From the NCBI RefSeq assembly GCF_007741535.1, contig NZ_CP036525.1, forward strand, positions 3,348,001 through 3,412,000: a stretch of 64,000 nucleotides of DNA, written 5' to 3'. Below, in pieces: positions 10,272 to 61,885 of the stretch; the stretch's first letter is position 1, and each line of letters begins with the position of its first letter. This DNA comes from Rubripirellula lacrimiformis. Its GTDB lineage: Bacteria; Planctomycetota; Planctomycetia; Pirellulales; Pirellulaceae. Below the pieces are notes generated by a model. The model made no database searches and was not told the DNA's origin. It was given only the letters and a program-made list of their open reading frames with translations. The translations under genes were made by a program, and so were the position numbers.

Positions 10272-10342
10272 TGCAACCGTTTGAATCCGACGAAATCCAA
10301 CTTTGTCACGCAGCGATCCTGTACTTCATTAAGGACCCCAAG

Positions 10343-13992: not shown

Positions 13993-14235
13993 AACTTTGC
14001 TGCAGCTTCGAAAAAATGCGGACACTTATGTTCCTTCGCTGGACAACGCCGCTTTCGCTAGCCGTTTCGGCGCGAGCGGCCTGCTGATTGAGTGAGCCGT
14101 GATCGCGTGAGCGGCCGGGATTCCCCATTCCCCGTGGCCCATTGCCCGTGGCCTGACCGCCAGCGGCTCACCATTGCTGTCCACCATTCGAATGAATCAG
14201 CACGCCGCTAGCGCCACGATAGTGGCACTGTGCAG

Positions 14236-43226: not shown

Positions 43227-43427
43227 GGTGTGGCTTGGCAAGAGAAGATCAGAAGGGAAGCGAGCGCTTCGTCAGAATCTGATTTTAGAGTATCCAACCC
43301 CGGTCAGGGGCCTGTGTCGACCAAGCCAATCATGGACCGCGTGTTCATTCCCGTCACAGGCCCGCCACCAAGCCACCCACCAACGTCCCGAATCCGCGCC
43401 CTCGCCCTCGCCCTGCCCCTCGTAGTC

Positions 43428-43575
43428 GAACCCGAACCCGAACTCGCCCTCCCCCTCGAACCCGAACCCGAACCCGAACTCGAACCCGAACCCGAACCCG
43501 AACCCGAACCCGAACCCGAACCCGAACCCGAACTCGAACTCGAACTCGAACTCGAACTCGAACTCAAACCCAAAC
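43428..43575. repeat. Hexamer microsatellite (CCCGAA/CTCGAA)n
   Basis: About 22 hexamers in a 404-bp gap (43227-43630) between phoD and the ankyrin gene: first CCCGAA with a few CTCGAA, then six consecutive CTCGAA. It is open in frames on both strands (Glu-Pro/Glu-Leu or Ser-Gly/Ser-Ser dipeptides), but no gene start or conserved sequence supports translation. The rest of the gap holds nothing recognised. Confidence 0.93.
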
Positions 43576-45523: not shown

Positions 45524-47419
45524 TCACCGATCTCGCCTGAGATCGGATCGGGTTGGATCGGCGGATTCGCTTGACACTCGGCTCAACGCAACCGGGACCG
45601 TTCTCTCGGTCGATTGCTGGTCGGATTGGGCAACCAATTGGTTGCGAATACGCGTCAATGCTTGGACCAGTCGATCGGGTTCGAACGCAGCTCGGTGAAC
45701 CAAATCGGCTTCCAATGCTTTGGGGTAGATGAACTGTTCGCGTCCGGACGGCAGCGCCGCTTCCACTCCGGTCACGGATGCGACACCCAGGTCAGCGATC
45801 TGTTTCTCGATCGCTGGATCCAGTGGCGAACCTTCGCTGCGCAATTCGTCTGCGATCGTTTGCACAGCCCACACGACTTGGCGTGCGGAATCGTAAGTCA
45901 GCATCCGTTGCTTGGGTGTTCGAGTCAGTCCCAGCAACATTTGTTTGGCGATCCGCTCGGTGACCGGTTTTCGTTCGACTTGCTCGATGGCCACTGCGAT
46001 CTGACGGCGAAGTTGTTCCGCCACACCGCTGACCCGATCTGGATCGCCGAAGGGGCGGTCCGCGAACAGCCCGGTCAATTGGTTCTGGTTGGCACGCACT
46101 TCGTTGACAGGTTCCTTCGTTCCGGCCGCGTAACCATAGAACTGAAGAGCCAGGGCCAGCAGTGTGTCGGGCCATTCGTTTTCGCGGGGACGTCCGGGGG
46201 CGCCCGGAAACCCACGCCGCTGGCGGTCGCTGTTGCTGGCCAATTCATGATGGCAGGCCGCGCAATCGTACAGCGAATAGTCTGCCCACTGGTGCGAGTT
46301 CGCCGATTCGATGTACAGGTCCAATGCCTGGGCACGGGCGACCAAGGCGCCGACCAACATCTTGCGTGTGTTCCAGAAAATTTTGTCGGCATCAACCGTC
46401 TGGGTCAGTCCCGGATAGTTGGTGCGGAAGTACTCGTCGCGCCCGGCGGAATCTTTCAGCGAAGACGACAATTCCGATGGGGTCTGCCAGTGTTGTGGCA
46501 TCTCTTTACAGAACGCCTGCAGTTCGATCGACGGAATCGGTGGATGTCCGGCGGCGTACATTTCGTGGGTCACAAACATGTTCTTGGATCGATTGCCGAC
46601 GTGACAATCGAAACAGAGTTGTGCTTGGTTGGATGTGTCGACAAGATCTCGCATGCCGGCCGCGGTTTTTTGATCAGGCGGCAGCATTCGCCACTCAGAC
46701 GCCGTCGTCAGCGAGGCGTGATCGCTGACCCATTTTTGATTGTCACCGATTTGGTGGCAGTACAAACAATCGATGCCCAGTTGTGAATCGTCGTGGGACG
46801 ACAGATCAAAGCCTTGGTCGCCCTTCTGGTAGCCGCCGTGACAGGTCAAACACTGGTCGCGGAACTTTTGGTAACCCGCCTCTGTCTTGACGCTTCCCGA
46901 ACCCCACAGCTTGTCGCAGATTCTGCGGCTAAGAATGTTGCTCTCACCGATCCATTGTTCCGGGACCTTGGTGAATCCGATCTGGCTGAGATCGACCGGG
47001 CGATTGTTTCTTTGCAACGCTTCGATCGCGACGCCTTGTTGGCGTTTGACCCGAGCCATCAATTTCATCAGTTCGTCTTCGCTTTGCTGGTCCGCGAAGG
47101 GCTCGATTCGACGGCGGGCGATCGTGTGCTTGTCGTTGGTCAGCCATCGATCCATTTCGATACGACGCGCAAAGTCGACAAACAATCCGGCGATCAGTTC
47201 CTCGTCCGTGGGCCCCCGGAAATGGCAACTGACACAACCTTCGACTTTGGCGGAGGTGATCCATGTCAAATAGACCGGGTCGCTTAGCCGCTGTTCCAAC
47301 GTCGGCCCGGAATCTTGGGCCGAAACCGACACGGGGCTGGATAGGGCCAAAGCAACGGCCAAGGCAGTCGCGGCGCACGCCAACGGCGCCGTCATTCGAG
47401 CGGTCACGATCCGATTCAT
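45524..47419 (-). CDS. Exported pentaheme cytochrome c
   Basis: A ~631-aa periplasmic cytochrome with five CxxCH motifs: CVSCH, CLTCH, CLYCH, CFDCH and CAACH. The signal peptide MNRIVTARMTAPLACAATAL with cleavage near VSA-QD supports the ATG at 47419; two in-frame upstream ATGs (47446, 47491) are possible. HEMYAAGHPPIPSIELQAF echoes NHDIIAAGHPALRY in the neighbouring cytochrome, so the two are paralogs. The C-terminal ~280 aa after CAACHHEL is heme-free and helical. It lies 44-115 bp (depending on its start) downstream of the next cytochrome gene on the same strand, probably the same operon. Confidence 0.9.
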   Translation of the reverse strand: MNRIVTARMTAPLACAATALAVALALSSPVSVSAQDSGPTLEQRLSDPVYLTWITSAKVEGCVSCHFRGPTDEELIAGLFVDFARRIEMDRWLTNDKHTIARRRIEPFADQQSEDELMKLMARVKRQQGVAIEALQRNNRPVDLSQIGFTKVPEQWIGESNILSRRICDKLWGSGSVKTEAGYQKFRDQCLTCHGGYQKGDQGFDLSSHDDSQLGIDCLYCHQIGDNQKWVSDHASLTTASEWRMLPPDQKTAAGMRDLVDTSNQAQLCFDCHVGNRSKNMFVTHEMYAAGHPPIPSIELQAFCKEMPQHWQTPSELSSSLKDSAGRDEYFRTNYPGLTQTVDADKIFWNTRKMLVGALVARAQALDLYIESANSHQWADYSLYDCAACHHELASNSDRQRRGFPGAPGRPRENEWPDTLLALALQFYGYAAGTKEPVNEVRANQNQLTGLFADRPFGDPDRVSGVAEQLRRQIAVAIEQVERKPVTERIAKQMLLGLTRTPKQRMLTYDSARQVVWAVQTIADELRSEGSPLDPAIEKQIADLGVASVTGVEAALPSGREQFIYPKALEADLVHRAAFEPDRLVQALTRIRNQLVAQSDQQSTERTVPVALSRVSSESADPTRSDLRRDR

Positions 47420-47534
47420 GGCGGTTCGATCGGTTGCCTTTCCCATCAAGCCGGCGGCCCAATCGGAGCGGTGGTTTGGTGTCTGTCCCATCGTGCGTTT
47501 GTTTTCGCGATCGAGGTCGTCCGACGATGGCTCG

Positions 47535-49427
47535 CTAGGGACGAGCCTGTTGACGTTTGCGTTGCTCTTCCAGCAACTGTTCGTCGGATTTGATTATGCG
47601 TTTCGGTCTTACCGTTTCCTTGGCCTTCGTTTCGGTGGGCATCGCTTCGGCGTTTGGATTGGTCTGTTCAAACTGTCGCTTTCGTTCCGCTTCGGATGCT
47701 GTCCAACGTGCTTCGATCCGTCTTAGGATCGATTGCAGTTCGATTCGCATCGATTCCGAAATCGTTTCGTCGTTGGTGCGATCGCCGACCGCTGATGTCA
47801 GCGGGTGTCCAGCGTCCAGGGACACCGGTCCCAACCAGCCCGCGATTTCGATTCCCAATCGCATCGTGTCGTTGACCGAAAGAGTCGGCTTCACGCCTGC
47901 GGATCGTTTTGCGTACCGGCTGACGTCGATCATTTCCGGATAGCGTAACCCATTCCGCATCCGGTCCGCACTGTTTTTGATGGGGCCATTCCACCCGCCG
48001 GGCCAGCTTTCCCGGGCGGCAACGGCCGCCAAGTAGAACTGGACGGCTGATTCCCACGTTTGGAACGTGTTTGTTTTTCCTGCGGCCGAAGCGACCACGC
48101 GGCCAAGCCGATCGCTGCGGAATATTTGCCGTTCTTGGATCCCGGCCGTCCCGTCGACCCATCGTGCCAGCGCCTGGCGGGCGGCGGCGGCCTCACCGGC
48201 GACGTGCGACGCATCCGGTGCAGGCCCCGATTCCATTTGGTCACGAACCTGGTCCAGCGCGGCCAGCAACTCGAAATCTTGTTGCGTGCCCGCACCGGTT
48301 TCCATTCGATAGTTGATCAGCCAACGTAGACCTGCGTCATTCCATTGGCTGTATCTGCCGACGGCTTTGCGAGTATCGGTGATCGGGCCTCGCTGGTTAT
48401 CCAGCCCAAGGTCATGGTGGCAAGATGCGCAGTCCAGCGAAGCGAGTTCCGGCCATTGGCTCGCGGTATGCCCATCCATCGCACGGGTCTGCAACAGCGA
48501 TAGCGATGCGTCGGTTGCGGCAACCTGACCCGCCAACCACAACTGGGCTTCGTATCGGGTCGAGTCCGCCGCTTCGTCGTCACGCCAGTGTTTGGGTTGC
48601 CAAGCATGGAAGGTCGCAAATTCGTATCGCAGTGCCGGATGCCCTGCCGCGATGATGTCGTGGTTCATGTCACGATCTTGATCGCCGATATGGCAGGATG
48701 CGCACATGCGAGCCCGGACGTACAGATCGCCGGCTTCGACAAATCCTTGTCCGGTGGCGTCCTGGGACGCCCAGTCATTCGCGAAATGGGTCTGGATCCA
48801 AATTTCGCTGGGGCCGTGGCACGCCGAACAACCGACTCCTTCACGTTGGAATCGATGGACGTCGTCTGGCATGCTGGCGATCGGCTGGTCGCGACAAACG
48901 GCACCAGCGACTTCGTGGGTGTTCGCGTGGCCACTGGTTCGTGGTTCGTTGTACCGACGAGTTGAATTATGGCAGGACAAACAGTTGTCAAAGCCAGCCT
49001 GGTCAACGATCTGGTCCCCCACCATGATCTTCAACCGCTTCATCATGTCGACGCTTTCATCGCCACAGATGGTTCGCCAGCTATTGGCGTGCGGATCGTT
49101 CTCTAGCCACAGCGAGTATTCCGATCCGCGGCTTGCCCAGGGCTGGGCAATGCCCGGTCGAGGCCCCGCGTGGCAGCTAGCGGTGGCGCAGGACTGTGCA
49201 CCGTTGATCTTTAGGTCTTGCCGCAGCAGTGGGCCATGCCACCGGTCCAAGGTGCCCGGAATGATTGGCGAAACAGGGACGAATCGACCATCGTCAATGC
49301 CAGCGATGTCAGCCTGCGGGAATGATGGGTACTGGCCCATCGCCGGTGGTTGTCCGATCACGAACAGACCGAGCGCAAAGAACGCCTGGAAGGTTCGAGC
49401 AAATTGATCGGATCGGATGAACCACAT
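47535..49427 (-). CDS. Exported pentaheme cytochrome c with a CX4CH first heme site
   Basis: A 630-aa cytochrome c, c554-like in organisation. The signal peptide FARTFQAFFALGLFVIGQ precedes five heme sites: CATASCH (four residues between the cysteines), CLSCH, CSACH, CASCH and CASCH. RDMNHDIIAAGHPALRYEF is a conserved segment shared with the cytochrome starting at 52394 and supplies potential distal His ligands. The C-terminal ~290 aa carries no heme. It diverges from the rightward electron-transfer cluster across 342 bp. Role in a periplasmic electron wire is inferred. Confidence 0.91.
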   Translation of the reverse strand: MWFIRSDQFARTFQAFFALGLFVIGQPPAMGQYPSFPQADIAGIDDGRFVPVSPIIPGTLDRWHGPLLRQDLKINGAQSCATASCHAGPRPGIAQPWASRGSEYSLWLENDPHANSWRTICGDESVDMMKRLKIMVGDQIVDQAGFDNCLSCHNSTRRYNEPRTSGHANTHEVAGAVCRDQPIASMPDDVHRFQREGVGCSACHGPSEIWIQTHFANDWASQDATGQGFVEAGDLYVRARMCASCHIGDQDRDMNHDIIAAGHPALRYEFATFHAWQPKHWRDDEAADSTRYEAQLWLAGQVAATDASLSLLQTRAMDGHTASQWPELASLDCASCHHDLGLDNQRGPITDTRKAVGRYSQWNDAGLRWLINYRMETGAGTQQDFELLAALDQVRDQMESGPAPDASHVAGEAAAARQALARWVDGTAGIQERQIFRSDRLGRVVASAAGKTNTFQTWESAVQFYLAAVAARESWPGGWNGPIKNSADRMRNGLRYPEMIDVSRYAKRSAGVKPTLSVNDTMRLGIEIAGWLGPVSLDAGHPLTSAVGDRTNDETISESMRIELQSILRRIEARWTASEAERKRQFEQTNPNAEAMPTETKAKETVRPKRIIKSDEQLLEEQRKRQQARP

Positions 49428-49769
49428 AATGACTAACGGGGCGTCCGCGGATAGTTGGATGGGGTGGGCATCACCCCGATGTCCCCCACATCAGTCCCTA
49501 TCGGCACCACCGTTGGCTGCAGCATGACCATTCCCGCATCGTTACGAGTGTCTAAAGCGTTTCCAGCCAATGAATCGGACTAACCGGAATAGATTGACAT
49601 CCGCGATCTTTGCGATGTAGCTAGTTTGACTTGCCCACCGATTGGGATTAAACATGTCGCACGAACGGGTGGGAGAAAAAGAGACGCCGGGTAGCGGTTT
49701 TTGTTCACGATTGCTTCCTGTTCGGTCGCAATATCGAAACGCTGATTCCGAGCCGAAGGGCCAATAAAC
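49428..49769. promoter_or_regulatory. Divergent control region of the cytochrome cluster
   Basis: A 342-bp gap between the leftward and rightward cytochrome operons. GGGGTG-GGCAT-CACCCC at 49461-49477 is a perfect 6-bp stem-loop. TTGACA at 49594-49599 followed 18 bp later by TAGCTA (49618-49623) is a weak promoter candidate pointing right. AAGGG about 10 nt before the GTG at 49770 is the ribosome-binding site. No CRP-like TGTGA-N6-TCACA palindrome was seen. Confidence 0.4.
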
Positions 49770-50738
49770 GTGTTGATCAATCGCGGCCAATCCAGACTAC
49801 ATCTGATGTTCGGAATTCCGACGCTGTTGGTGACCCTTGGCCTGATCGTCATCTATGTTCGCGAATCCATTTCGGCAGGTCAGTGGGTCGGTGGCGGCAG
49901 CGGCAGTGGTTTGTTGTGTGGAATCGCTGCGGGATTGGTCATCGTGTTCGAAATGTTGCTTTGGCCACGCAAAGCACTTCGTCGGCTCCGGTTGATCCCC
50001 GCCAAGTACTGGTTGGCTGCTCACCTCTGGTTTGGTTTGGCTTCATTGCCGCTGGCCATTGTTCATTGTGGGTTTCATTTGGGCGGATGGCTGCCGACCA
50101 CGTTCATGGTGTTGTTCGTGTTGTGCATTGTCAGTGGCATCTACGGGATGATTGTCCAGAACGTGTTGCCCAAGTGGATGCTACGCAACCTGCCATCCGA
50201 AACGATCTACAGCCAGATCGATTACGTGTCCGAGCAGGCGGTCGAGGACGTTCGGCAGTTATTGATCAGCGCTTGTGGTCGAGTAATGTCGGCCGACGAC
50301 CGGTTGACCGATGAACCTGAAATCGAAGCTGCCAAATCCACGGCGGTGATCGTGGGCGCTTTGCGTCAAGCGGGCAAAACCAGCGGTCGGACGTTGCAGA
50401 CCCGACGCTTCAAATCGGCAACGGCCGATCGCGACACGCTTTGGACGGCATTCGAAGAGATCAAGCCGTTCTTGCTGACCGGCCGCTTGGCAGAAACTCC
50501 GGTCACCGACCAACGCAATTCGTCACAATGGTTTTCGCGTCTGCGAGGGGTGTGCGGGGAAGAGAGCGAATCGATCATCGACGTGCTCGAAAGCACCTGC
50601 CAACAGCGACGTCAATTCGATGTGCAGGGCACCGTCCACCGCTGGTTGCATGCGTGGATCCCCATCCACGTCGGCCTTGCGGTCGCTGTCACCGTTCTGT
50701 TGGCGGCCCATGTTTGGACCGCACTGAAATACTGGTAA
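49770..50738 (+). CDS. Multi-histidine membrane protein, cytochrome b-like
   Basis: A 322-aa integral membrane protein starting at GTG 49770. Hydrophobic helices lie near residues 10-30, 46-65, 81-103, 108-133 and 296-320. Histidines cluster where b-heme ligands are expected: His85 (AAHLWFG), His99 and His103 (IVHCGFH), and in the C-terminal helix His290, His294, His300 and His314 (VHRWLHAWIPIHVG, AAHVW). About 150 soluble residues separate helices four and five. This pattern suggests a cytochrome b561/ferric-reductase-like quinol or b-heme protein. It is the first gene of the rightward cluster, 30 bp before the ten-heme cytochrome. Confidence 0.75.
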   Translation: MLINRGQSRLHLMFGIPTLLVTLGLIVIYVRESISAGQWVGGGSGSGLLCGIAAGLVIVFEMLLWPRKALRRLRLIPAKYWLAAHLWFGLASLPLAIVHCGFHLGGWLPTTFMVLFVLCIVSGIYGMIVQNVLPKWMLRNLPSETIYSQIDYVSEQAVEDVRQLLISACGRVMSADDRLTDEPEIEAAKSTAVIVGALRQAGKTSGRTLQTRRFKSATADRDTLWTAFEEIKPFLLTGRLAETPVTDQRNSSQWFSRLRGVCGEESESIIDVLESTCQQRRQFDVQGTVHRWLHAWIPIHVGLAVAVTVLLAAHVWTALKYW

Positions 50739-50768
50739 CGTTCGTATTGGCAACGGCGAAAGAATCTG

Positions 50769-52397
50769 ATGGCTCGCGAAACCGGCAAGCAACGATCTCA
50801 ACGAATCCAAATCGACTATTTTCGTCGCCGCGGTGGTCTGCAGACCTTTCGCACGGTCTGCATTGCGATCGGACTTGTCGGTGCGGGGCTGTACGCTGCC
50901 TTTGTCCTAGCCTGGGGCGGCGGTTCGCAGGTTTCGACCGGCCAAATCGCTCGTCCACACGCCGCGTTTCAAAACGATTGCCAACTGTGCCACGAAGATT
51001 TTACGCCCATGGATTCCGAGGCGATCCAGCTTGACCTGACGATGGTCGGTGTCAAACGCGAAGCATCGATCGGACGTTTGGAAGCGGCTTGCCAGGCCTG
51101 TCACCAAGTGGGCGACCACTATCGCAATGCGATGACATCATCGTTCCGGCTGCAAGACCAAAACTGCGGTGCCTGTCATTCGGACCATCAAGGTTTAGGA
51201 CATGATCTTAGCGCGGTCGCCAACCAAAAATGTGCGGTCTGTCACGCCAAGCTCGCTGACACCTGCAAGGCAGCCCCGACCATCAAACCGGATGTGGCAT
51301 CGTTCACCAAAGCTAGCCACGGGGACTTTGCGTCCCTGATGACTGATGACATTGGAACGATCAAGTTTGATCACCACCAACACCTGATGCCCGGTCAAGT
51401 CGACGATGGTCAAAAGGGGGCGTTTACCATTGAAATGTTGGACGCCGCGCTACGTCCGCGATACCGGAAAACGGGCCAGTCGGATTCCGATGCGGTGCAA
51501 CTGGACTGCGCCAGCTGCCACACCTATGCCGGCAATCCCGACGATCTGGCGCGTTACCCTGAACGATCCTTGATCGCTGATCACGAATTGGGACGCTACA
51601 TGGCGCCCGTTTCGTATCGCCAGCACTGTGCGGCTTGTCATGCGATGAACCCAGGCATCGCGACCGCCGACACGACTCCCATTCCCCATGCGGTTGCATG
51701 GTCCCAAGTGGATCTGCTGATCGCGGCCGACATCGTTGGCGTGCGATCAACCGGCCAAGCGCGCGGCGCCGGGGATGACACACAATCCACCCCGCAGCCG
51801 GGCGAAGGGATCGGCAGCCGGATCGACCGCGACGAAGCTATCTCGGCGAAGTTGGTTGCTGCTAGAAAACAGATCGAATCTCAATGTCTGAAATGCCATG
51901 ACGATGCGTCGATCAGTGACACGGCGATCACTGCGGCATTGGATGGCACTGCCGCTCCGATGATTCCGCCTCGCTGGTTGATGCATGGGCTGTATGATCA
52001 CGCCGCCCACCGTGACATCGATTGCCGATACTGTCACCAAGCTGCCTACCCGGTCGCCGGATCGCCCCCCCGACCAGCGATCGATCATACGATTGTGATG
52101 ATCTCGGGGATCGAAAGTTGCGACGGTTGCCATCGCTCGGCAACGACCCCGACGCCCGCTTCGTTAGCCAACCCAAGTGTTGCCAACATGCTGCGCGGAC
52201 AATCCACTTGGGCGGCCGACGATTGCACGATGTGCCATCGATATCACACCTCGGGTGCGCCGGCCAACCAGACCGAATCAGCCAACCTGAACGAATCGGC
52301 GATCAGTGATCTCGGCAACGAGGCCAGCGTCCACGCTGATATCCACGCTGATTTGCGAGACGCCATTTCCGCGGTCTCTGCGGGGGCGACGCCATGA
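50769..52397 (+). CDS. Membrane-anchored decaheme cytochrome c
   Basis: A 542-aa protein with ten CxxCH motifs in order: CQLCH, CQACH, CGACH, CAVCH, CASCH, CAACH, CLKCH, CRYCH, CDGCH and CTMCH. One N-terminal helix (VCIAIGLVGAGLYAAFVLAWGG, residues ~36-57) preceded by a basic stretch anchors it with the heme domain in the periplasm. Extra His residues (KFDHHQHLMPG, YDHAAHRDIDC) can be distal ligands. Its last four bases overlap the next gene (ATGA), so the two are translationally coupled. It probably receives electrons from the adjacent membrane b-type protein. Confidence 0.93.
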   Translation: MARETGKQRSQRIQIDYFRRRGGLQTFRTVCIAIGLVGAGLYAAFVLAWGGGSQVSTGQIARPHAAFQNDCQLCHEDFTPMDSEAIQLDLTMVGVKREASIGRLEAACQACHQVGDHYRNAMTSSFRLQDQNCGACHSDHQGLGHDLSAVANQKCAVCHAKLADTCKAAPTIKPDVASFTKASHGDFASLMTDDIGTIKFDHHQHLMPGQVDDGQKGAFTIEMLDAALRPRYRKTGQSDSDAVQLDCASCHTYAGNPDDLARYPERSLIADHELGRYMAPVSYRQHCAACHAMNPGIATADTTPIPHAVAWSQVDLLIAADIVGVRSTGQARGAGDDTQSTPQPGEGIGSRIDRDEAISAKLVAARKQIESQCLKCHDDASISDTAITAALDGTAAPMIPPRWLMHGLYDHAAHRDIDCRYCHQAAYPVAGSPPRPAIDHTIVMISGIESCDGCHRSATTPTPASLANPSVANMLRGQSTWAADDCTMCHRYHTSGAPANQTESANLNESAISDLGNEASVHADIHADLRDAISAVSAGATP

Positions 52398-53845
52398 CGT
52401 TGAATGCCGTCGGCGTGAAACCATTTCCATCGCCGCCGTTGCTGGTTGTCGGTTGGTGGGGCGCCGGGATTCTGGCGATCGCGTTGTGGACATCCACGAC
52501 AAATGCCGCGGAACCGATCCGATGGGTGGGCAGCGATTCCTGTGCTACGTCGACATGCCACGGCAACGTCGAGGGCCGTGGCCCGGCATGGAACCATGCG
52601 ATGTCGACTTGGATGGCCAACGATCCGCATGCCGGCGCAGGCGACGTGCTGCGAAGCCAACTCTCACGCCGAATCGTGTCCCGGCTGAACCCGGCCGCGT
52701 CGCAGTCGCCGGATGAATTGGATCGCACACTTCGAAAACGTTGCATCAGTTGCCATTTGACCGCGACCCCCCAGGACTGTGACGATGACGCCCTACTGCC
52801 GCCCGACTTTGTGGCGGCCGGCGTATCCTGCGAAGCCTGTCACGGACCGGCCGGGCAATGGTTGACGGCGCACACGGGCCGTGACTGGGTGGGGGATTCT
52901 CGATTCAGCAATGGGCTGGGAATGCGAGACACCGAGTCGATCATCGGTCGGTCGGACACGTGTGTTCGTTGTCACATCGGTTCGCGCAGCGAAGATTCGA
53001 TGGTCCGCGACATGAACCACGATTTGATCGCCGCCGGTCATCCCGCGCTGCGGTTTGATCTGCTGATTTACAACCAAAATCTGCCACCGCACTGGGATCC
53101 CCAAGGGGAACCCGAGCGACCGTTCATGGAATCGCCGATGCGAGTTCGATCGGTCAGCCGTGCAATCAATTTGGCCACCGCCGCAACGTTGTCGGCACAG
53201 CGGGCCACCGCTTTCGTTGCCGACCACAGCGTGCCATGGCCAGAGTTCGCTGATTACGACTGCTTTGCCTGTCACCAATCACTTTCGATCGAAGAATTCA
53301 AATTGCCGCCACGTGATCGGACCAAGTCGCCACTGCATGTCAGCGACGGTTTGCCGGTTTGGAATTCATGGCACACCGTCCGGCAACTGGAACTTCGCGA
53401 TTCACCTGACTTGCTACAGAAACTTTCGCCGCATCAAAGTGATCCACCGCAGATTGCCAAAAGTGGTCTTTCCTTGGCTCAAAAGTATCGCCAAGTTGCC
53501 AAGTCCAAGCTGACCGAGACCGCCAAGCCCTATGATTCGATACGCGATGTCCTGCGATTGATACGGACTCGGCAACCCGTGGATTGGCACGAAGCGGCGA
53601 TTTTGTATTTGGATCTCGACGCGGCAGGGCGTCAAATCGCATCCCAAGATGATAGCGCTGATGCCGGCCGCGAAATCCTGTTGGGATTAGAGGATGTGGA
53701 ACGCATGCTTCGGTTCGACCCCGATCGGAGCGTCGACCAACCGTCCGTGATCCATTCACCGGCGGCCTTTGATCCCGCCATGTTCGGCCCCACGCTGGAC
53801 AAGATTTTTACCGACAAGCTGCCCACCAACCTTGAATCGCCATGA
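52394..53845 (+). CDS. Exported pentaheme cytochrome c (paralog of the 47535-49427 product)
   Basis: A 483-aa cytochrome with five heme sites: CATSTCH (CX4CH), CISCH, CEACH, CVRCH and CFACH. RDMNHDLIAAGHPALRFDL is nearly identical to the matching segment of the leftward paralog, and SCEACHGP matches its GCSACHGP. A signal peptide is present (PPLLVVGWWGAGILAIALWT, cleavage near NAA). The gene starts inside the stop of the decaheme gene and its own stop overlaps the next start (ATGA at 53842), so three genes are tightly coupled. Confidence 0.92.
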   Translation: MTLNAVGVKPFPSPPLLVVGWWGAGILAIALWTSTTNAAEPIRWVGSDSCATSTCHGNVEGRGPAWNHAMSTWMANDPHAGAGDVLRSQLSRRIVSRLNPAASQSPDELDRTLRKRCISCHLTATPQDCDDDALLPPDFVAAGVSCEACHGPAGQWLTAHTGRDWVGDSRFSNGLGMRDTESIIGRSDTCVRCHIGSRSEDSMVRDMNHDLIAAGHPALRFDLLIYNQNLPPHWDPQGEPERPFMESPMRVRSVSRAINLATAATLSAQRATAFVADHSVPWPEFADYDCFACHQSLSIEEFKLPPRDRTKSPLHVSDGLPVWNSWHTVRQLELRDSPDLLQKLSPHQSDPPQIAKSGLSLAQKYRQVAKSKLTETAKPYDSIRDVLRLIRTRQPVDWHEAAILYLDLDAAGRQIASQDDSADAGREILLGLEDVERMLRFDPDRSVDQPSVIHSPAAFDPAMFGPTLDKIFTDKLPTNLESP

Positions 53846-55611
53846 TCATTCCGGCCCTTTATGAACGGCAAAAGAAACGTGGCGGCTACCTAACCGACGC
53901 TGATATGAATTCGGTGGCGGAAGAACTTGGCGTTCCGCTGCACCGGATCCATTCGCTGGTGACGTTCTTTCCACACTTCACCACCACGCCTCCGCCCAAG
54001 GTCGAAGTTCATGTCTGCCGCGACATGAGTTGTCACTTGAACGGATCGGTACCGATGACGGGCGAAGTTGCCGATTGGGCCAAACAGAAATTTGGATCCG
54101 ACGTGCACGTATCGGGGGTCTCTTGCCTGGGACGATGCGATCGCCCACCGGCGGTGATGATCAACGAGCAACTGATCGCGTCCACGTCCGCCCAGGACTT
54201 GAAGGATGCGATCGACGCTGTGATGGACGACCGGCCACCCAATCTAAATAGCGACTGGGAACTGGCGCAGGCCAAAGTCGGCCAGTGGGACATGGATGTC
54301 TACGACGGCAAAGGTCGCTACGACATGGTCCGTGACTATGTCAGTGGTGGCGGTGATCCCGACAAGGTTTTGTCGGCACTCGAAAAAGCAGGGCTACTAG
54401 GGATGGGCGGTGCCGGTGGTCGTGCCTATCTGAAATGGGGCGACGTGATGCGTGCCGAGGGCACGACGGGTGAAAAATTTGTCGTGTGCAACGCCGATGA
54501 AAGTGAGCCCGGTACGTTTAAAGATCGCGAGATCCTGCTTGCCGCACCCCACCTGACGATCGAAGGGATGATCATCGCGGCGCTGGTCACCGGTGCGACG
54601 CGAGGCTGGATCTACATTCGCCACGAGTATCCCGAACAGATCCAGAAGTGCCGCGAAGAAATCGACCGTGCCGTCGCATTGGGGGCCTGCGGTCGCAATA
54701 TCTTCGGCAGCAGTCGCTCCTTCGAATTGGACGTCTTCCCCAGCCCCGGTGGTTACATCTGTGGCGAACAAACGGCGCTGATCGAAGCGATGGAAGACAA
54801 ACGGGCCGAGCCCCGGAACCGCCCGCCCGAATTGATGACCAACGGTTTGTACGATCAACCGACGCTGCTATCCAATGTCGAAACCTTCGCCTGGGCACCG
54901 GCGATCCTGAAAGACGGCGGCCAGTGGTTTGCCGATCAAGGCATCAAAGACGGCCCGTTGACGAAGGGATCCAGCGAACGGATGACCGGGAAACGGTTGT
55001 TTTCGATCAGCGGTGATTTGAATCGACCGGGTGTCTATGAAGTTCCGACCGGGACGACGCTGGGGCAATTGATCGATGACCACTGCGGTGGCATGAAACA
55101 GGGCAAATCGATTGCGGCCGTTGCACTCTCGGGGCCGTCCGGTGGTCTGCTGCCAGCAAAGATTCCCGTCCAATATCTCAATCGCCGTTTCGTCGAAGCA
55201 AACGTTCCGGCCGACGTCAAGGAAATCGACATCCGCGACCTGCCACTGGACATCAATGTCTCCCGTGCGGTCGGATACATGTTGGGCGCTGGGATCGTCA
55301 TCTATGGCGAAGGTTGCAACGTGCTGTCCGAAGCCGTCGCGAACAGCAACTTCTATCGCAAGGAATCTTGTGGGAAGTGTGTCCCCTGTCGCATCGGGTC
55401 GGAAAAAATCACCGAGATGGGCAAACGACTGCTCGACGGTGACGTCGACGAATCCGAACTGGCGACGATGCAGCCGATTGCGATGCAGTTAAGCGGTGTG
55501 ATGCAGGCGACCAGCATTTGCGGGCTGGGGCAAGTCGCCAGCAACCCGTTCCAGACCTTTCTGACGTATTTCCCCGATGCCGCTCGGGCGGCGTGCAAGA
55601 AAAAGTCCTAG
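53842..55611 (+). CDS. NuoE-NuoF fusion: NADH-oxidising flavin/iron-sulfur module
   Basis: A 589-aa fusion of the two diaphorase subunits of complex I or bidirectional hydrogenases. Residues 1-125 are NuoE-like with the thioredoxin-fold [2Fe-2S] ligands Cys59, Cys64, Cys95 and Cys99 (CRDMSC, CLGRC). Residues ~165-589 are NuoF-like: GMGGAGGRAYLKW (NADH/FMN), CNADESEPGTFKDREIL, GGYICGEQTALIEAMED, and the [4Fe-4S] ligands SCGKCVPCRIGSEK plus CGLGQ. It is cytoplasmic and should oxidise NADH or reduce NAD+. It sits between exported cytochromes and an iron-sulfur partner, with no complex I membrane genes nearby. Confidence 0.94.
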   Translation: MIIPALYERQKKRGGYLTDADMNSVAEELGVPLHRIHSLVTFFPHFTTTPPPKVEVHVCRDMSCHLNGSVPMTGEVADWAKQKFGSDVHVSGVSCLGRCDRPPAVMINEQLIASTSAQDLKDAIDAVMDDRPPNLNSDWELAQAKVGQWDMDVYDGKGRYDMVRDYVSGGGDPDKVLSALEKAGLLGMGGAGGRAYLKWGDVMRAEGTTGEKFVVCNADESEPGTFKDREILLAAPHLTIEGMIIAALVTGATRGWIYIRHEYPEQIQKCREEIDRAVALGACGRNIFGSSRSFELDVFPSPGGYICGEQTALIEAMEDKRAEPRNRPPELMTNGLYDQPTLLSNVETFAWAPAILKDGGQWFADQGIKDGPLTKGSSERMTGKRLFSISGDLNRPGVYEVPTGTTLGQLIDDHCGGMKQGKSIAAVALSGPSGGLLPAKIPVQYLNRRFVEANVPADVKEIDIRDLPLDINVSRAVGYMLGAGIVIYGEGCNVLSEAVANSNFYRKESCGKCVPCRIGSEKITEMGKRLLDGDVDESELATMQPIAMQLSGVMQATSICGLGQVASNPFQTFLTYFPDAARAACKKKS

Positions 55612-55730
55612 CAACATCGACGCTGGGCCAGACCCCGTACTTTCCAGCGTGCTGAAACACCGCGTCACCCCACTGCCCGCCGCATTCCAACGGCTCCTGT
55701 TACTTGTTCTTACTTTGTTAAGTAGATCCC

Positions 55731-58241
55731 ATGAGCAACGCGTCCGACCCCAGCGACAAGCCCGTTAGCTTTGACGTCACCGATTTGGTCGAAGGGACAA
55801 GGCCGGATGACGAAGGGTTGTTCGCGCGGGACGTCGACGGCCAACTGATCCGTGTCGAACGGGCCACCGCGTCGGAATTGGACGAAGACGTCGCGCTAAC
55901 GATCGACGGGCGGGCGATCACGGTCAAAAAAGCGGTCCCCACCCGGGACGCACAAGGCAACATTATCCGTGACGACAACGGCGCGCCCAAGCCGCGGTTC
56001 ACGACCATCTACGATGCGGCAAGCGAAGCGTTTGTTCGCAAACCGGGCGACCCGCATCCGATCCCCGCACTGTGTCACAAAGAACACTTGCCCCCGGTGG
56101 GCGTGTGCCGAGTTTGCGTTGTCGAAGCGACTGAAATGACACGGCGTGGACCTCGCAAAAAACTGGTCCCATCCTGTGTGCAACGGGTCAACGCCGGGAT
56201 GATCGTCAACACGATCAATAGCGAAGCGGACCCCGATGCGGCCGAACGCGTCAAAGCATCCTGCCAAACAGTCGTTGAACTATTGGTTGCCGATCACCTG
56301 CCCGATTCGCAACAACACACCACGGGCAACGAATTGGCAGCCATCGCACAGCGGATGGGTGTGACTCAGTCGCGGTTTGCTGGTCGATCGATCCAACGTG
56401 GGCAAGACAACAGCAGCAAGATGATCATGGTCGACCATGACCAGTGCATCATGTGCGGCCGGTGCCAACGGGGCTGCAACTGGGTCAAAGGCAACAACGT
56501 GATCGGGCGCGCCGAGAAAGGTTACGAGTCGCGGATTGCATTCGACTTGGATTCACCCATGGGGCACAGTCACTGTGTTTCGTGTGGCGAATGCGCTGTC
56601 AGTTGTCCGACCGGTGCGATGCAGTTTCAGCCCTCGTTCATCGAAACCCAGATCAAACGTGTCCAGGACGACATGGTCGCCGAAAAGAAGGACGGCGAGA
56701 TCGTGACGGCGGACGAGCTTGTCAAAATCGACCTGTTTTCGGGGATTCCGTACAAGTTTTTGCAGTTCAATGGTGCCGCGGTGGTTCGCCGTATGATGGC
56801 GCCCGGCGATGTCCTTTGCCGCGAAGGCGAATACGGATCGACGGCCTTCATCATCCTAGATGGCGAGTTCGAGATCTTTCTGAACACGACTCGTGGCGCC
56901 GTTCGAAACGAAAAGGCCAGCGGCCTGGCCGGTCTGTTGGGCGGACTGAAAACGGTCGTCGAAAAGGTGGGCGGCCGGGCGCGATTGGCCGACGTGGGCG
57001 CGGCACAGCTTTTGGACAACCAACGTATCCTGCGTAACAAAGAAGATGTCGTCCTTGGCGAAATGACGTGCATGAATCGCTATCCCCGTAGCGCCACCGT
57101 CGTCGCCACCCAGCCGGCCGAAGTGTTGGAAATCAAACGCAACGTGCTGTACATGTTGCAGCGAAATGCCGTCAGTCGCGAAATCTTGGATCGGGTCTAC
57201 CGTGAACGATCGTTGCGAGGCCAATTGGCATCGTTGCCGATCTTCGATTCGCTTGATGAAGCCAACCGTAACCTTGCCGCCGACTACCTCAGCAACAAAG
57301 CCGATCTGGTGTCCGTGGATCCCGGACAAACCATTTTCAAGCAAGGCGATCTGGCAGACGACTACTACATCAACAAACTTGGCTTCGTCAAAGTCACGCA
57401 GGCCTACGGTCGTGACGAACGCGTGCTGAACTACTTGGGCCCTGGAAACGGGTTTGGCGAGATTGGTTTGTTGAGCAGTCTTGGCAACACGTTGAAAGAA
57501 TCGCTGGGCGGCGAAATTCGACCGGGGGTCCGAACGGCAACCTGTTCGGCCCTGGATCACGTCGAATTGATTCGAATCCGTGGCGACGACTTTCGTGCCC
57601 TGCTGCAACAGTTTCCTGAATTGAAACAGAACCTAGCGGCGAAGGCGAAAGAGATTCTGCAGCGTGACCAGGAAGCCCGCAGCCGGCTGCAGGCTGTCGA
57701 AGCAGATGAATTCTTGGACCAGGGTTTGTACCTAGCCCAAAGTTTGTTGGTTCTGGATCTAGAACGCTGCACTCGGTGTGACGAATGCACCAAAGCGTGT
57801 GCAGACACACACGATGGCGTCACTCGGCTGGTTCGTGACGGGCTACGATTCGACAAGTTCCTGGTCGCCAGCAGTTGCCGATCCTGCATGGACCCGTATT
57901 GTCTGGTGGGCTGCCCCGTCGATGCGATCCACCGCGGCGGTGACTCGTTAGAGATCGAGATCGAGGACTACTGCATCGGCTGCGGCCTGTGTGCGGAGAA
58001 TTGCCCCTACGGCAATATCAACATGCACGGGTTCGACAAGCAGGAAGTCGATGCCAAGGGCAAACTCCGCAGCGTCTATCAGGAAGTCGACGGAAAGAAG
58101 TTGCCAGTGGTTCAACAGCGGGCAACCACCTGTGACCTCTGTCGCAGCGTCGACGGAAAACCCAGTTGCGTGTACGCCTGTCCCCACGAAGCGGCGTTTC
58201 GGATGACCGGAAAGCAACTGATGGACATGGTCAGCCGATAA
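55731..58241 (+). CDS. Multidomain iron-sulfur protein with two cyclic-nucleotide-binding domains
   Basis: An 836-aa cytoplasmic protein. Residues 53-150 form a NuoG/HoxU-like [2Fe-2S] domain (Cys115, 126, 129, 149) with a 23-residue insertion at 68-90. The following His-Cys [4Fe-4S] site of NuoG has lost its cysteines (VADHLPDSQQHTTGNEL, 186-201). Two [4Fe-4S] motifs follow (Cys239-249 and 282-292). Two cyclic-nucleotide-binding domains follow (about 335-480 and 503-640) with phosphate-binding-cassette stretches PRSATV and RTATCS. A 16-cysteine DmsB-like ferredoxin module (680-817) follows. It is the likely electron partner of the NuoEF fusion upstream, gated by cAMP or cGMP. Confidence 0.88.
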   Translation: MSNASDPSDKPVSFDVTDLVEGTRPDDEGLFARDVDGQLIRVERATASELDEDVALTIDGRAITVKKAVPTRDAQGNIIRDDNGAPKPRFTTIYDAASEAFVRKPGDPHPIPALCHKEHLPPVGVCRVCVVEATEMTRRGPRKKLVPSCVQRVNAGMIVNTINSEADPDAAERVKASCQTVVELLVADHLPDSQQHTTGNELAAIAQRMGVTQSRFAGRSIQRGQDNSSKMIMVDHDQCIMCGRCQRGCNWVKGNNVIGRAEKGYESRIAFDLDSPMGHSHCVSCGECAVSCPTGAMQFQPSFIETQIKRVQDDMVAEKKDGEIVTADELVKIDLFSGIPYKFLQFNGAAVVRRMMAPGDVLCREGEYGSTAFIILDGEFEIFLNTTRGAVRNEKASGLAGLLGGLKTVVEKVGGRARLADVGAAQLLDNQRILRNKEDVVLGEMTCMNRYPRSATVVATQPAEVLEIKRNVLYMLQRNAVSREILDRVYRERSLRGQLASLPIFDSLDEANRNLAADYLSNKADLVSVDPGQTIFKQGDLADDYYINKLGFVKVTQAYGRDERVLNYLGPGNGFGEIGLLSSLGNTLKESLGGEIRPGVRTATCSALDHVELIRIRGDDFRALLQQFPELKQNLAAKAKEILQRDQEARSRLQAVEADEFLDQGLYLAQSLLVLDLERCTRCDECTKACADTHDGVTRLVRDGLRFDKFLVASSCRSCMDPYCLVGCPVDAIHRGGDSLEIEIEDYCIGCGLCAENCPYGNINMHGFDKQEVDAKGKLRSVYQEVDGKKLPVVQQRATTCDLCRSVDGKPSCVYACPHEAAFRMTGKQLMDMVSR

Positions 58242-58275: not shown

Positions 58276-58772
58276 CGTAGCGCAAGTCGCCAAGACTTTC
58301 GGCGTCCCCAGTATCCAGGGCCGAAACTCTTGGCGAGTCTCGCTACCAAGACTTTCGGCCATCCCCACCATCCAGGGCCGAAACTCATGGCGAGTCTCCC
58401 TACCAAGACTTTCGACCAACCGCATCGTCCCGTAGCGCAAGTCGCCAAGACTTTCGGCCATCCCCCATCATCCAGGGCCGAAACTCTTGGCGAGTCTCGC
58501 TACCAAGACTTTCGACCAACCGCATCATCCCGTAGCGCAAGTCGCCAAGACTTTCGGCCATCCCCCATCATCCAGGGCCGAAACTCTTGGCGAGTCTCGC
58601 TACCAAGACTTTCGGCCAACCGCATCGTCCCGTAGCGCAAGTCGCCAAGACTTTCGGCCATCCCCCACCATCCAGGGCCGAAACTCTTGGCGAGTCTCGC
58701 TACCAAGACTTTCGACCAACCGCATCATCCCGTAGCGCAAGTCGCCAAGACTTTCGGCCATCCCCCATCCAG
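58276..58772. repeat. Tandem repeat array, left part (~100-bp hairpin units)
   Basis: Unit starts (CGTAGCGCAAGTCGCC) lie at 58276, 58431, 58531, 58631 and 58731, so the period is exactly 100 bp for most. The first unit is 155 bp because it carries an extra half unit. Each unit has an inverted repeat: GTAGCGCAAGTCGCC...TTTCGG against CCGAAACTCTTGGCGAG...GCTAC, 22 of 26 positions complementary, around a ~21-nt loop. A spacer containing CCAAGACTTTCGACCAACCG follows. The last unit is cut in its loop by the IS element. Confidence 0.96.
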
Positions 58773-58838
58773 CCCTCTGTGCCAACATGCGTGAGACAAC
58801 TTTGAATTTCATCAGAGTTGAGGGCATGGAGCATTCGC

Positions 58839-59222
58839 ATGACCGATACCGCCAACAAAAAAATTGAAAAAGATCCCGAGGTGACACAGAAAGCGGCCCG
58901 TCGCCGCTTCACCGCCGACTACAAACGCCGTATCGCCCTGGAGGCCGAAAGCTGTAGCGAGCCCGGAGAAATCGGGGCGTTGCTCAGACGCGAGGGAATT
59001 TACTCCTCGGTCCTGGCAAAATGGCGTCGTCAATTGCGGGAGGAATCATTGTCATCATCGAAAAAGTCTAACGGCAAAACTTCACCAGCCGATCAACTCA
59101 AACGTCTTGAACGTGAGAACGAGCGGCTCAAGGAGAAGCTCCGCCACGCCGAGCTGATCATTGACGTCCAAAAAAAAGTCTCGGAGATGATGCAGATACG
59201 ATCACACGAGAAGGACGACTGA
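58839..59222 (+). CDS. IS3-family transposase OrfA (helix-turn-helix subunit)
   Basis: A 127-aa DNA-binding subunit. The helix-turn-helix region (RRRFTADYKRRIALEAESC, then IGALLRREGIYSSVLAKWRR) is followed by a leucine-zipper-like helix (DQLKRLERENERLKEKLRHA) for multimerisation. The run of eight A at 59170-59177 near its 3' end allows ribosomes to slip into OrfB. The ATG at 58839 was chosen as the first one preceding conserved sequence. Confidence 0.88.
   Translation: MTDTANKKIEKDPEVTQKAARRRFTADYKRRIALEAESCSEPGEIGALLRREGIYSSVLAKWRRQLREESLSSSKKSNGKTSPADQLKRLERENERLKEKLRHAELIIDVQKKVSEMMQIRSHEKDD
59170..59177 (+). other. Candidate programmed -1 frameshift site (A8)
   Basis: Eight consecutive A residues read as CAA AAA AAA in the OrfA frame. 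A -1 slip here enters a frame with no stop from 59174 through to 60433, giving one OrfAB transposase. This matches the expression mode known for IS3-family elements. Confidence 0.75.
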
Positions 59223-59275
59223 CAGCCGCCAAACAACTGAGTGAAACAGTCGGCGTCGCGGCTGCTTGCCGTGCG

Positions 59276-60433
59276 ATGAATGTGTCGCGTGCGACGTTCT
59301 ATCGTCGCCGCGACCCCGATCGACAAGCCGCGCCGAGGCCGGCGCCCGCTCGAGCTCTATCACCGCAAGAACGCCAAGAAGTACTTGATCAACTCAACAG
59401 CGAGCGTTTCGCTGATCATGCACCACGACAGGTCTACGCCAAGTTGCTCGACGAGGGCGACTACCTGTGTAGCGTGCGAACGATGTATCGCATCTTGGCC
59501 GACAATCAAAGCACACGCGAACGACGAAACCAGCTGAAGCATCCCGAGTATCGCAAACCAGAACTGCTCGCCACCGCGCCCAACGAAGTCTGGTCTTGGG
59601 ACATCACCAAACTCAAGGGCCCCGAAACATGGACGTACTACTACCTCTACGTGATTCTGGACATCTACAGCCGCTGCGTCGTTGGCTGGATGCTGGCCGA
59701 TAGCGAGAGCGCCGACTTGGCCAAGCAGCTGATTGAAACCACGATCGACAAGCAGAACATTCCACCCGAACAACTGATCATTCACAGCGACCGGGGACCT
59801 TCGATGACATCTCACAGCGTAGCGCAGCTACTCAGTTCGCTGGGCGTCACCAAATCACACAGCCGACCGCACGTCTCCAACGACAATCCGTTCTCGGAAA
59901 GCCAATTCAAAACGATGAAGTATCGACCTGAGTTCCCCAAACGCTTTGGCTGTTACGAAGACGGCTTGCAGTTCTGTCGCACGTTTTTCACCTGGTACAA
60001 CAACGAGCACTATCACAGCGGCATCGGGTTGCTAACTCCATCATCGTTGCACTTCGGCCGCGCCGAGGAAGTAACTGCCGCTCGCACGCAGACTCTTCAT
60101 GGTGCGTGGAAAAAAACACCCGAGCGTTTCGTTCACGGAATTCCCAAGCCAGCAAGTGTTCCCCAAGCCGTCTGGATCAACCCTCCCAAACCAATCGATG
60201 AACGCAAAAGGGAAGCCCCCGAGCCAACCTGCCCGGGAGCTTCCGAAGAAACGTCTTTGACGCACCCTCGATCCGATTATCCCTTGGACGGTTGCGTCCC
60301 CGCAGAGCCGCCTTCCGTTTCACCGGACGAATCAACCTTACCACCGAAAACACCTTTGAACACCCGAGCGATGCCTGAAAAAATCCCGGGGGTTTGGGGG
60401 CTGGCCCCCAAGTGCGCTGGCATCAATCACTGA
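59276..60433 (+). CDS. IS3-family transposase OrfB (DDE integrase core)
   Basis: A 385-aa catalytic subunit in the -1 frame relative to OrfA. After NVSRATFYRRRDPDRQ the integrase core shows the first Asp in WSWDITKLKG, the second in IHSDRGPSMTSH and the Glu in NPFSESQFKTMKYRPEFP, about 35 residues later. The frame is open upstream to the A8 slippery site, so the real product is probably an OrfAB fusion. The C-terminal ~90 aa after WKKTPERFVHGIPKP is Pro/Glu-rich and extends beyond the usual IS3 OrfB end. Confidence 0.88.
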   Translation: MNVSRATFYRRRDPDRQAAPRPAPARALSPQERQEVLDQLNSERFADHAPRQVYAKLLDEGDYLCSVRTMYRILADNQSTRERRNQLKHPEYRKPELLATAPNEVWSWDITKLKGPETWTYYYLYVILDIYSRCVVGWMLADSESADLAKQLIETTIDKQNIPPEQLIIHSDRGPSMTSHSVAQLLSSLGVTKSHSRPHVSNDNPFSESQFKTMKYRPEFPKRFGCYEDGLQFCRTFFTWYNNEHYHSGIGLLTPSSLHFGRAEEVTAARTQTLHGAWKKTPERFVHGIPKPASVPQAVWINPPKPIDERKREAPEPTCPGASEETSLTHPRSDYPLDGCVPAEPPSVSPDESTLPPKTPLNTRAMPEKIPGVWGLAPKCAGINH

Positions 60434-60473: not shown

Positions 60474-61885
60474 CAGGGCCGAAACTCTTGGCGAGTCTCG
60501 CTACCAAGACTTTCGACCAACCGCATCGTCCCGTAGCGCAAGTCGCCAAGACTTTCGGCGTCCCCCATCATCCAGGGCCGAAACTCTTGGCGAGTCTCGC
60601 TACCAAGACTTTCGACCAACCGCATCATCCCGTAGCGCAAGTCGCCAAGACTTTCGGCCATCCCCACCATCCAGGGCCGAAACTCTTGGCGAGTCTCGCT
60701 ACCAAGACTTTCGACCAACCGCATCATCCCGTTGCGCAAGTCGCCAAGACTTTCGGCCATCCCCCATCCAGGGCCGAAACTCTTGGCGAGTCTCGCTACC
60801 AAGACTTTCGACCAACCGCATGATCCCGTAGCGCAAGTCGCCAAGACTTTCGGTGTCCCCATCATCCAGGGCCGAAACTCTTGGCGAGTCTCGCTACCAA
60901 GACTTTCGACCAACCGCATCATTCCGTAGCGCAAGTCGCCAAGACTTTCGGCGTCCCCCATCCAGGGCCGAAACTCTTGGCGAGTCTCGCAACCAAGACT
61001 TTCGACCAACCGCATCATCCCGTAGCGCAAGTCGCCAAGACTTTCGGCGTCCCCAGTATCCAGGGCCGAAACTCTTGGCGAGTCTCCCTACCAAGACTTT
61101 CGCGCAAACGCATCATCCCGTAGCGCAAGTCGCCAAGACTTTCGGTGTTCCCATCATCCAGGGCCGAAACTCTTGGCGAGTCTCGCTACCAAGACTTTCG
61201 ACCAACCGCATGATCCCGTAGCGCAAGTCGCCAAGACTTTCGGTGTCCCCATCATCCAGGGCCGAAACTCTTGGCGAGTCTCGCTACCAAGACTTTCGAC
61301 CAACCGCATCATCCCGTAGCGCAAGTCGCCAAGACTTTCGGCCATCCCCCATCATCCAGGGCCGAAACTCTTGGCGAGTCTCGCTACCAAGACTTTCGAC
61401 CAACCGCATCATCCCGTAGCGCAAGTCGCCAAGACTTTCGGCCATCCCCCATCATCCAGGGCCGAAACTCTTGGCGAGTCTCGCTACCAAGACTTTCGAC
61501 CAACCGCATCATCCCGTAGCGCAAGTCGCCAAGACTTTCGGCCATCCCCATCATCCAGGGCCGAAACTCATGGCGAGTCTCGCTACCAAGACTTTCGACC
61601 AACAGCATCATCCCGTAGCGCAAGTCGCCAAGACTTTCGGTGTCCCCAGTATCCAGGGCCGAAACTCTTGGCGAGTCTCGCTACCAAGACTTTCGACCAA
61701 CCGCATCATCCCGTAGCGCAAGTCGCCAAGACTTTCGGCCATCCCCCATCATCCAGGGCCGAAACTCTTGGCGAGTCTCGCTACCAAGACTTTCGCGCAA
61801 CCGCATCGTCCCGTAGCGCAAGTCGCCAAGACTTTCGGCGTCTCCCACCATCCAGGGCCGAAACTCTTGGCGAGTCTCGCAACGA
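60474..61885. repeat. Tandem repeat array, right part (~14 units of 96-100 bp)
   Basis: After a partial unit, CGTAGCGCAAG starts lie at 60532, 60631, 60730 (CGTTGCG), 60827, 60925, 61021, 61119, 61217, 61315, 61415, 61515, 61614, 61712 and 61812. Period differences of 96-100 come from small indels in the loop (CCATCCCCCATCATCCAGGG versus shorter forms). Arms are almost invariant; loop and spacer carry the substitutions. The array ends at CGAGTCTCGCAACG near 61882. Open frames through it change repeat phase every unit and are not genes. Confidence 0.96.

Follow-up and report, generated by a model that had tools for sequence, protein, structure and literature searches.

What does a planctomycete do with a set of multiheme cytochrome genes that stands beside an NADH-oxidising module and an iron-sulfur (Fe-S) protein with cyclic-nucleotide-binding (CNB) domains? 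Seven such genes lie together in Rubripirellula lacrimiformis, within a 64,000-nucleotide stretch of contig NZ_CP036525.1 (positions 3,348,001 to 3,412,000; referred to as the window, in which positions are counted from its first letter). An earlier note, made from the letters of the window, had proposed that they form a cyclic-nucleotide-responsive conduit between the NADH pool and a periplasmic or extracellular acceptor or donor. The proposal is supported by a conserved gene neighbourhood, by the occurrence of the CNB/Fe-S protein and the cluster's membrane protein in the same genomes and by a NuoE-NuoF protein that is unlikely to be that of complex I. We consider it probable that the cluster conducts electrons from NADH across the inner membrane, by a route that most likely continues to the cell surface and is most likely tuned by cyclic nucleotides. 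All seven open reading frames (ORFs) named in the earlier note were recovered at their positions, and they contain the following features:

45524..47491, minus strand: pentaheme cytochrome c, 655 aa, five CXXCH motifs, hydrophobic N-terminal export signal (by eye), of a cytochrome c554-related family
47535..49427, minus strand: pentaheme cytochrome c, 630 aa, four CXXCH and one CX4CH motif, of one family with the other two pentahemes of the window
49770..50738, plus strand: membrane protein, 322 aa, GTG start, predicted di-heme b protein with H85/H99 and H300/H314
50769..52397, plus strand: decaheme cytochrome c, 542 aa, ten CXXCH motifs, N-terminal signal or membrane anchor (by eye)
52394..53845, plus strand: pentaheme cytochrome c, 483 aa, four CXXCH and one CX4CH motif, ATGA overlaps at both ends
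53842..55611, plus strand: NuoE-NuoF fusion (NuoEF), 589 aa, with 2Fe-2S, flavin mononucleotide (FMN)/NADH, SLBB and 4Fe-4S domains
55731..58241, plus strand: CNB/Fe-S protein (CNB-FeS), 836 aa, with a HoxU/NuoG-like N-terminal module, two CNB domains and a C-terminal DmsB/HycB-like 4Fe-4S module
56058..56642, plus strand: HoxU/NuoG-like Fe-S module of CNB-FeS, aa 110-304
57057..57098, plus strand: phosphate-binding-cassette motif of the first CNB domain, aa 443-456
57309..57611, plus strand: second CNB domain of CNB-FeS, aa 527-627
57738..58205, plus strand: C-terminal 4Fe-4S electron-wire module of CNB-FeS, DmsB/HycB3-like, aa 670-825

The ATGA overlaps reported among three of the genes are 4 bp each (decaheme/pentaheme, 52394-52397; pentaheme/NuoEF, 53842-53845). 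Pfam domains bear out both the NuoE-NuoF fusion (2Fe-2S_thioredx, Complex1_51K, SLBB and NADH_4Fe-4S, all above cut-off) and the CNB/Fe-S protein (cNMP_binding in three stretches, with many 4Fe-4S matches). The NCBIfam models nuoF_fam and nuoE_fam matched NuoEF with 335.4 and 70.5 bits, both under their curated cut-offs.

The conservation of the cluster was examined by comparing gene neighbourhoods. Of the 7996 candidates scored in a protein search, 2181 were relatives at E ≤ 1e-60, the sources of the best 120 including Rubripirellula, Novipirellula, Roseiconus, Aporhodopirellula and Rhodopirellula. Scanning GTDB species genomes yielded at least 383 confirmed relatives. By title, the best 80 of these, which were kept, belong mostly to Planctomycetota and Acidobacteriota, with some Verrucomicrobiota, a few Rokubacteria and others; single-contig titles such as Kuenenia, Akkermansia or Rhodanobacteraceae are doubtful. 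These 80 and 21 further loci gave 101 mapped loci, in which two gene orders were distinguished. In the planctomycete-type order, which is that of the window, pentahemes are divergent from the membrane protein, decaheme, (pentaheme), NuoEF and CNB-FeS; in the acidobacterial type a pentaheme is divergent from NuoEF, CNB-FeS, membrane protein and decaheme. A contig titled as a Rubripirellula metagenome-assembled genome (L049) carries the same seven families in an order identical to that of the window. Among 31 relative loci with at least 8 kb on both sides, NuoEF is present in 30, the membrane protein with the decaheme in 28, and a pentaheme in 28, while all 15 loci with acidobacterial titles and at least 20 kb contain NuoEF, membrane protein, decaheme and pentaheme. 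The seven genes belong to a conserved system, whose core set is found again under the titles Planctomycetota, Acidobacteriota and Verrucomicrobiota. Cultured relatives among the mapped loci include Granulicella aggregans (L118) and Tautonia sociabilis (L068).

Co-occurrence was analysed in 294 Planctomycetota genomes. CNB-FeS (E ≤ 1e-80) was found in 19 of them, and the membrane protein (E ≤ 1e-60) in those same 19 and no others, at a cut that was set after the list had been seen (the next genome, G216, stood at 6.4e-51). An LVIVD-type decaheme, which is part of the outer-membrane unit described below, was searched for with an acidobacterial query and a cut-off fixed beforehand (E ≤ 1e-60). 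It matched 32 genomes: 17 of the 19 with CNB-FeS versus 15 of the 275 others (Fisher p 5e-17, a guide only, the genomes being related and not independent). The linkage across Planctomycetes on which the earlier proposal depended therefore held, as judged by the order in L049, the recurring core set and the presence of CNB-FeS and the membrane protein in the same genomes.

The window NuoEF is the sole homologue found in the 8.54-Mb single-contig genome. The 49-kDa/NuoD subunit of complex I gave 0 matches there (PF00346; in the control, 11 of 14 genomes matched), and because this subunit was not found, NuoEF is unlikely to belong to complex I. The genome does contain a match to NqrA of Na+-NQR, which, together with the lack of a NuoD match, makes it likely that NADH oxidation for aerobic respiration proceeds through Na+-NQR; NuoEF probably serves some other function. 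By Pfam, none of the seven genes encodes a partner of the hydrogenase, formate dehydrogenase or complex I kind; the genome as a whole was not searched for the [NiFe] large subunit.

CNB-FeS has a feature beyond those of the earlier note. Its residues 110-304 are similar to HoxU and NuoG, and also to the N-terminal parts of [FeFe] hydrogenases and of formate dehydrogenases linked to NADH; from about residue 670 onward the protein resembles DmsB/HycB-type proteins (NCBIfam and PDB in both cases). The HoxU model scored 117.8 bits, its cut-off being 333. C115, C126 and C129, as well as the eight Cys residues of two CX2CX2CX3C motifs, are invariant in nine sequences with the HoxU-like module; C149, the fourth Cys of the 2Fe-2S motif, is also common to the nine (by eye), and the NuoG-type His-Cys3 motif is not present in the window protein (by eye). 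The module occurs in 86 of the 101 mapped loci, and NuoEF accompanies it in 81 of these; three of the five exceptions stop at a contig edge, and the other two, L030 and L059, are apparently one contig mapped twice. None of the 14 loci without the module contains NuoEF (L052 was left out as incomplete, L038 and L124 are apparently one contig, and L048 and L126 were scored as lacking the module, their matches being cross-matches to other Fe-S motifs). Given these counts, the HoxU-like domain and the separate NuoEF gene behave as one unit. The genome of the window holds both states, the cluster with NuoEF input and a second, diverged core without NuoEF at G000:C1 5.905-5.911 Mb (L028, G000:C1:5896000-5915000, 9453-14506), which consists of a CNB-FeS lacking the HoxU module (623 aa), a membrane protein (296 aa) and a 742-aa decaheme.

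The multi-His membrane protein of the earlier note has four invariant histidines, H85/H99 and H300/H314 being conserved in 34 of 34 membrane-protein sequences with a spacing of 14 residues within each pair. Such His pairs in two helices are a hallmark of bilayer-spanning di-heme b proteins, and by their spacing the protein is predicted to be a di-heme cytochrome b. Its structure model (pLDDT 88.6) shows, in our reading, five membrane helices, and hydropathy counts for its relatives mostly give four or five. Pfam returned DUF4405 alone, below cut-off, and no NrfD match.

Motif counts in the four window cytochromes gave 5, 4+1, 10 and 4+1 heme sites, where "+1" denotes CX4CH. With CX4CH included, these agree with the three pentahemes and one decaheme of the earlier note; its total of 25 hemes stands only if both CX4CH motifs are included. 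Counting CX4CH as heme sites is reasonable because the C, C and H of this first motif do not vary in an alignment of 19 pentaheme-family sequences, although a number of them carry CX2CH there. Two loci, L029 and L077, encode the decaheme and a pentaheme as one fused protein (14 CXXCH and one CX4CH), which fits joint working of the two. In L031 (G044:C5:47900-67800), 17-heme and 12-heme cytochromes flank NuoEF/CNB-FeS, where a decaheme and pentahemes are usually found.

About 325 kb from the cluster, in L132 (G000:C1:3722000-3741900), the genes of an LVIVD-type decaheme, a porin-fold barrel and an HbpS-type protein lie close together. The large cytochrome scanned contains LVIVD repeats. The barrel of this outer-membrane unit has about 18 strands, and its best fold matches listed are AlgE/OprD-type porins; with regard to MtrB, there was no PDB sequence match at E ≤ 0.1, and MtrB is not among the 50 fold matches listed, which excludes nothing. 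The LVIVD-type decaheme and the barrel adjoin the core in a number of relatives, and the pair in L132 is probably part of the wider system. Short LVIVD-labelled ORFs with 0-1 heme motif (e.g., L060, L074, L083, L093, L121 and L126) are doubtful and were not used. The earlier note had left the acceptor as periplasmic or extracellular; the extracellular part of this claim is now favoured, because a gene for a porin-fold barrel stands next to that of a large multiheme protein both in relatives and in this genome. An ORF family of 321-1400 aa (some members cut or over-long) is found near the barrel/LVIVD pair in 30 loci, e.g., L095:3437-5065, and also at L132:16563-19199; the L095 member has an HbpS-like domain at residues 331-506. 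At L133 (G000:C1:1690000-1709900, 8025-10484) an 819-aa protein with 12 heme motifs is weakly related to the LVIVD-type decaheme.

The earlier proposal that the system responds to cyclic nucleotides finds support in two observations: the phosphate-binding-cassette motif is intact, and some relatives have cyclase genes as neighbours. The first CNB domain keeps G443, E444, R453, A455 and T456 unchanged in 19 of 19 sequences, residues which we take to match the cassette holding the cyclic phosphate in CRP and PKA; in the second domain G, E and R are kept in 19, 17 and 17 of the 19. No DNA-binding domain or C-terminal helix-turn-helix was seen in CNB-FeS among 20 Pfam families up to E 1, the C-terminus being 4Fe-4S. 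A class III cyclase ORF is present in 21 of the 101 mapped loci (L030 and L059 again counted separately), with PF00211 in 20 of 20 scanned. Genome-wide, 31 cyclase genes were found in 67.3 Mb of 15 genomes (14 with acidobacterial titles, one titled Rhodanobacteraceae); since 9 of their loci were already known to have a cyclase neighbour when the genomes were chosen, this density is, if anything, too high. Under a separate rule, taking every locus with an acidobacterial title and at least 20 kb (L110 falls outside), 8 of 15 loci contain a cyclase, compared to about 0.15 expected at genome density. In four genomes the cyclase of the cluster is the only one found. In L030 (G058:C272:34600-54500, 7764-8678) a cyclase gene lies 34 bp upstream of a second CNB-FeS copy without an adjoining NuoEF. 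The CNB domains might instead be structural and bind nothing, leaving the conduit unregulated, a view compatible with our explanation in all but the gating. Many CNB-fold domains bind no cyclic nucleotide and the window has no cyclase, but the conservation of both cassettes and the enrichment of cyclases beside acidobacterial copies make us regard it as rather unlikely.

The gene set, its conservation, the His pairs, the Fe-S, heme and CNB motifs, the co-occurrence and the cyclase neighbours of some relatives are computed results; the direction of flow (from NADH outwards), the order of carriers, the surface acceptor and the gating of the proposed conduit are inferred. NuoEF would oxidise NADH by means of FMN, 2Fe-2S and 4Fe-4S centres and pass the electrons to the HoxU-like module of CNB-FeS. 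They would leave this protein by its C-terminal DmsB/HycB-like 4Fe-4S module for the five-helix di-heme b membrane protein, and from there reach the decaheme and then the periplasmic pentahemes. Their way to the cell surface would most likely lead through the separate outer-membrane unit, encoded elsewhere in the genome. Lying between the Fe-S modules for input and output, the two CNB domains would most likely switch or tune the flow on binding cyclic AMP or cyclic GMP. Since flow from cytoplasm to periplasm should be electrically downhill, the conduit could act as an overflow valve for reductant or in respiration with acceptors outside the cell, for example Fe(III) or humics.

Several observations weigh against this explanation. 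The membrane-protein gene was not seen in the stretch examined for 31 of the 101 loci (25 of the 80); many of these lie on short contigs, but not L036, L037, L041, L059 and L088. No PDB relative of the membrane protein was found by sequence, Foldseek returned 0 matches at E ≤ 0.001, and the protein may have a quinone site. NuoEF and the HoxU module are both missing from at least 12 relatives (L038-L048 and L126) and from the in-genome paralogue L028, and NADH is therefore not the donor in every case. The system is patchy, being confined to 19 of the 294 genomes, and G121 and G205, of the same family as the window's genome, matched neither CNB-FeS nor the membrane protein nor the LVIVD-type decaheme at the cut-offs applied. 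The 19 of 19 agreement for the membrane protein was favoured by a profile built from sequences adjoining CNB-FeS, to which 9 of the 19 genomes contributed rows, and at E ≤ 1e-6 this profile matched 81 of the 294 genomes. The LVIVD-type decaheme was not matched in two CNB-FeS genomes, G044 (the source of L031) and G076, and there are no outer-membrane genes in the window. As for the gating, the window contains no cyclase, the three cyclases of its genome lying elsewhere; in three other single-cyclase genomes (G298, G299 and G305) none was found in the locus stretch examined; and CRP-type sites occur at chance level, with no operator standing out.

Electrons might instead travel inwards along the same wire, NAD+ receiving them from a low-potential donor in the periplasm or outside the cell. 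The outer-membrane unit would suit either direction and NuoEF-type diaphorases are reversible, but electrons from outside would have to reach an acceptor at -320 mV against the membrane potential unless the donor were very reducing; on this argument, itself of little weight, we judge electron uptake improbable. Alternatively, the acceptor might be a soluble periplasmic substrate, with one pentaheme as the terminal reductase and the outer-membrane unit as a separate system. The pentaheme family does show a relationship to cytochrome c554 (1bvb, E 1.7e-12) and a weaker one to NrfA-type nitrite reductases (E no better than 0.0009), and the LVIVD-type gene lies outside the window and is lacking in 2 of the 19 CNB-FeS genomes. 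However, the four window cytochromes have no CXXCK catalytic site, each CXXC being followed by H (motif counts), and the LVIVD-type decaheme both accompanies CNB-FeS across genomes and lies physically near the core in a number of relatives, so a reductase of this kind has little probability in our estimate. An NADH:quinone oxidoreductase, in which the membrane protein reduces quinone and the cytochromes are mere neighbours, is very unlikely: di-heme b proteins often work with quinones, but membrane protein and decaheme form 66 same-strand neighbour pairs with a median gap of 6 bp, and the genome already has Na+-NQR.

With outward flow from NADH retained as the preferred explanation, we tentatively extend it to a ligand-gated wire, in which CNB domains inserted between the input and output clusters of a cytoplasmic Fe-S protein would post-translationally gate the passage of NADH electrons, by way of a new family of di-heme b proteins, into a new outer-membrane conduit made up of an AlgE-like barrel and an LVIVD decaheme, the NADH input being losable together with its docking domain. 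To our knowledge, the well-studied electron-exit routes of Gram-negative cells start from quinol. An NADH-fed exit route with a second-messenger switch inside the wire would, if confirmed, be a different design, placing electron flow under direct post-translational control by cyclic nucleotides. The genes occur in Planctomycetota, Acidobacteriota and Verrucomicrobiota, groups of poorly known redox physiology, and would supply a testable gene set for extracellular electron transfer in their genomes.

Just downstream of the cluster is an apparent IS3-type transposase pair (58818-60433, by eye), flanked by two arrays of a tandem repeat with a 98-100 bp unit (58290-58769, about 4 copies; 60474-61880, about 14 copies). 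A CGAACC hexanucleotide repeat (43427-43575, about 25 copies) yields low-complexity reading frames.

This gene set is not described in the passages of the extracellular-electron-transfer literature consulted, and it shares parts with several known systems. The NuoE-NuoF fusion and the HoxU/NuoG-like Fe-S module resemble the diaphorase modules of HoxEFU, formate dehydrogenase (alpha/beta) and NuoEFG; here, however, one protein joins the HoxU part with CNB domains and a DmsB/HycB-like module, and the seven genes include no partner from a hydrogenase, a formate dehydrogenase or complex I. With the CRP/FNR regulators the system shares a CNB domain with an intact phosphate-binding cassette, but CNB-FeS lacks their helix-turn-helix. 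In Hmc, Tmc and Qrc of sulfate reducers, Fe-S proteins are wired across the membrane to periplasmic multiheme cytochromes via NrfD-type membrane subunits, whereas the window membrane protein has no Pfam NrfD match. In Methanosarcina MmcA is linked to Rnf, and we know of no CNB part in that system. The sections of PMC11024163 considered describe it as membrane electron transport tied to a multiheme cytochrome able to reduce outside acceptors; MmcA is an archaeal heptaheme of the tetrathionate-reductase group. The porin-cytochrome conduits MtrABC, Omb-Oma-Omc and OetABI (the last as outlined in passages of PMC10553843) likewise link an outer-membrane barrel to multiheme cytochrome genes, the barrel here differing in its approximately 18 strands and AlgE/OprD-type best listed folds, and the cytochrome in its LVIVD repeats. 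A porin-multiheme cluster from Verrucomicrobia, of the same superphylum, was hypothesised by He et al. (2017) to perform extracellular electron transfer with eight-heme periplasmic cytochromes; the section on it names no NADH or CNB component (PMC5615132). In architecture the window proteins can be likened to CbcL of Geobacter, which, according to the part of PMC9129911 consulted, combines a di-heme b membrane part of six helices with a periplasmic multiheme c part of nine hemes. In the window the b and c parts are adjoining but separate genes, not one chain, with five helices (as read from the model) and ten c hemes, and a cytoplasmic NADH/Fe-S input is encoded alongside.
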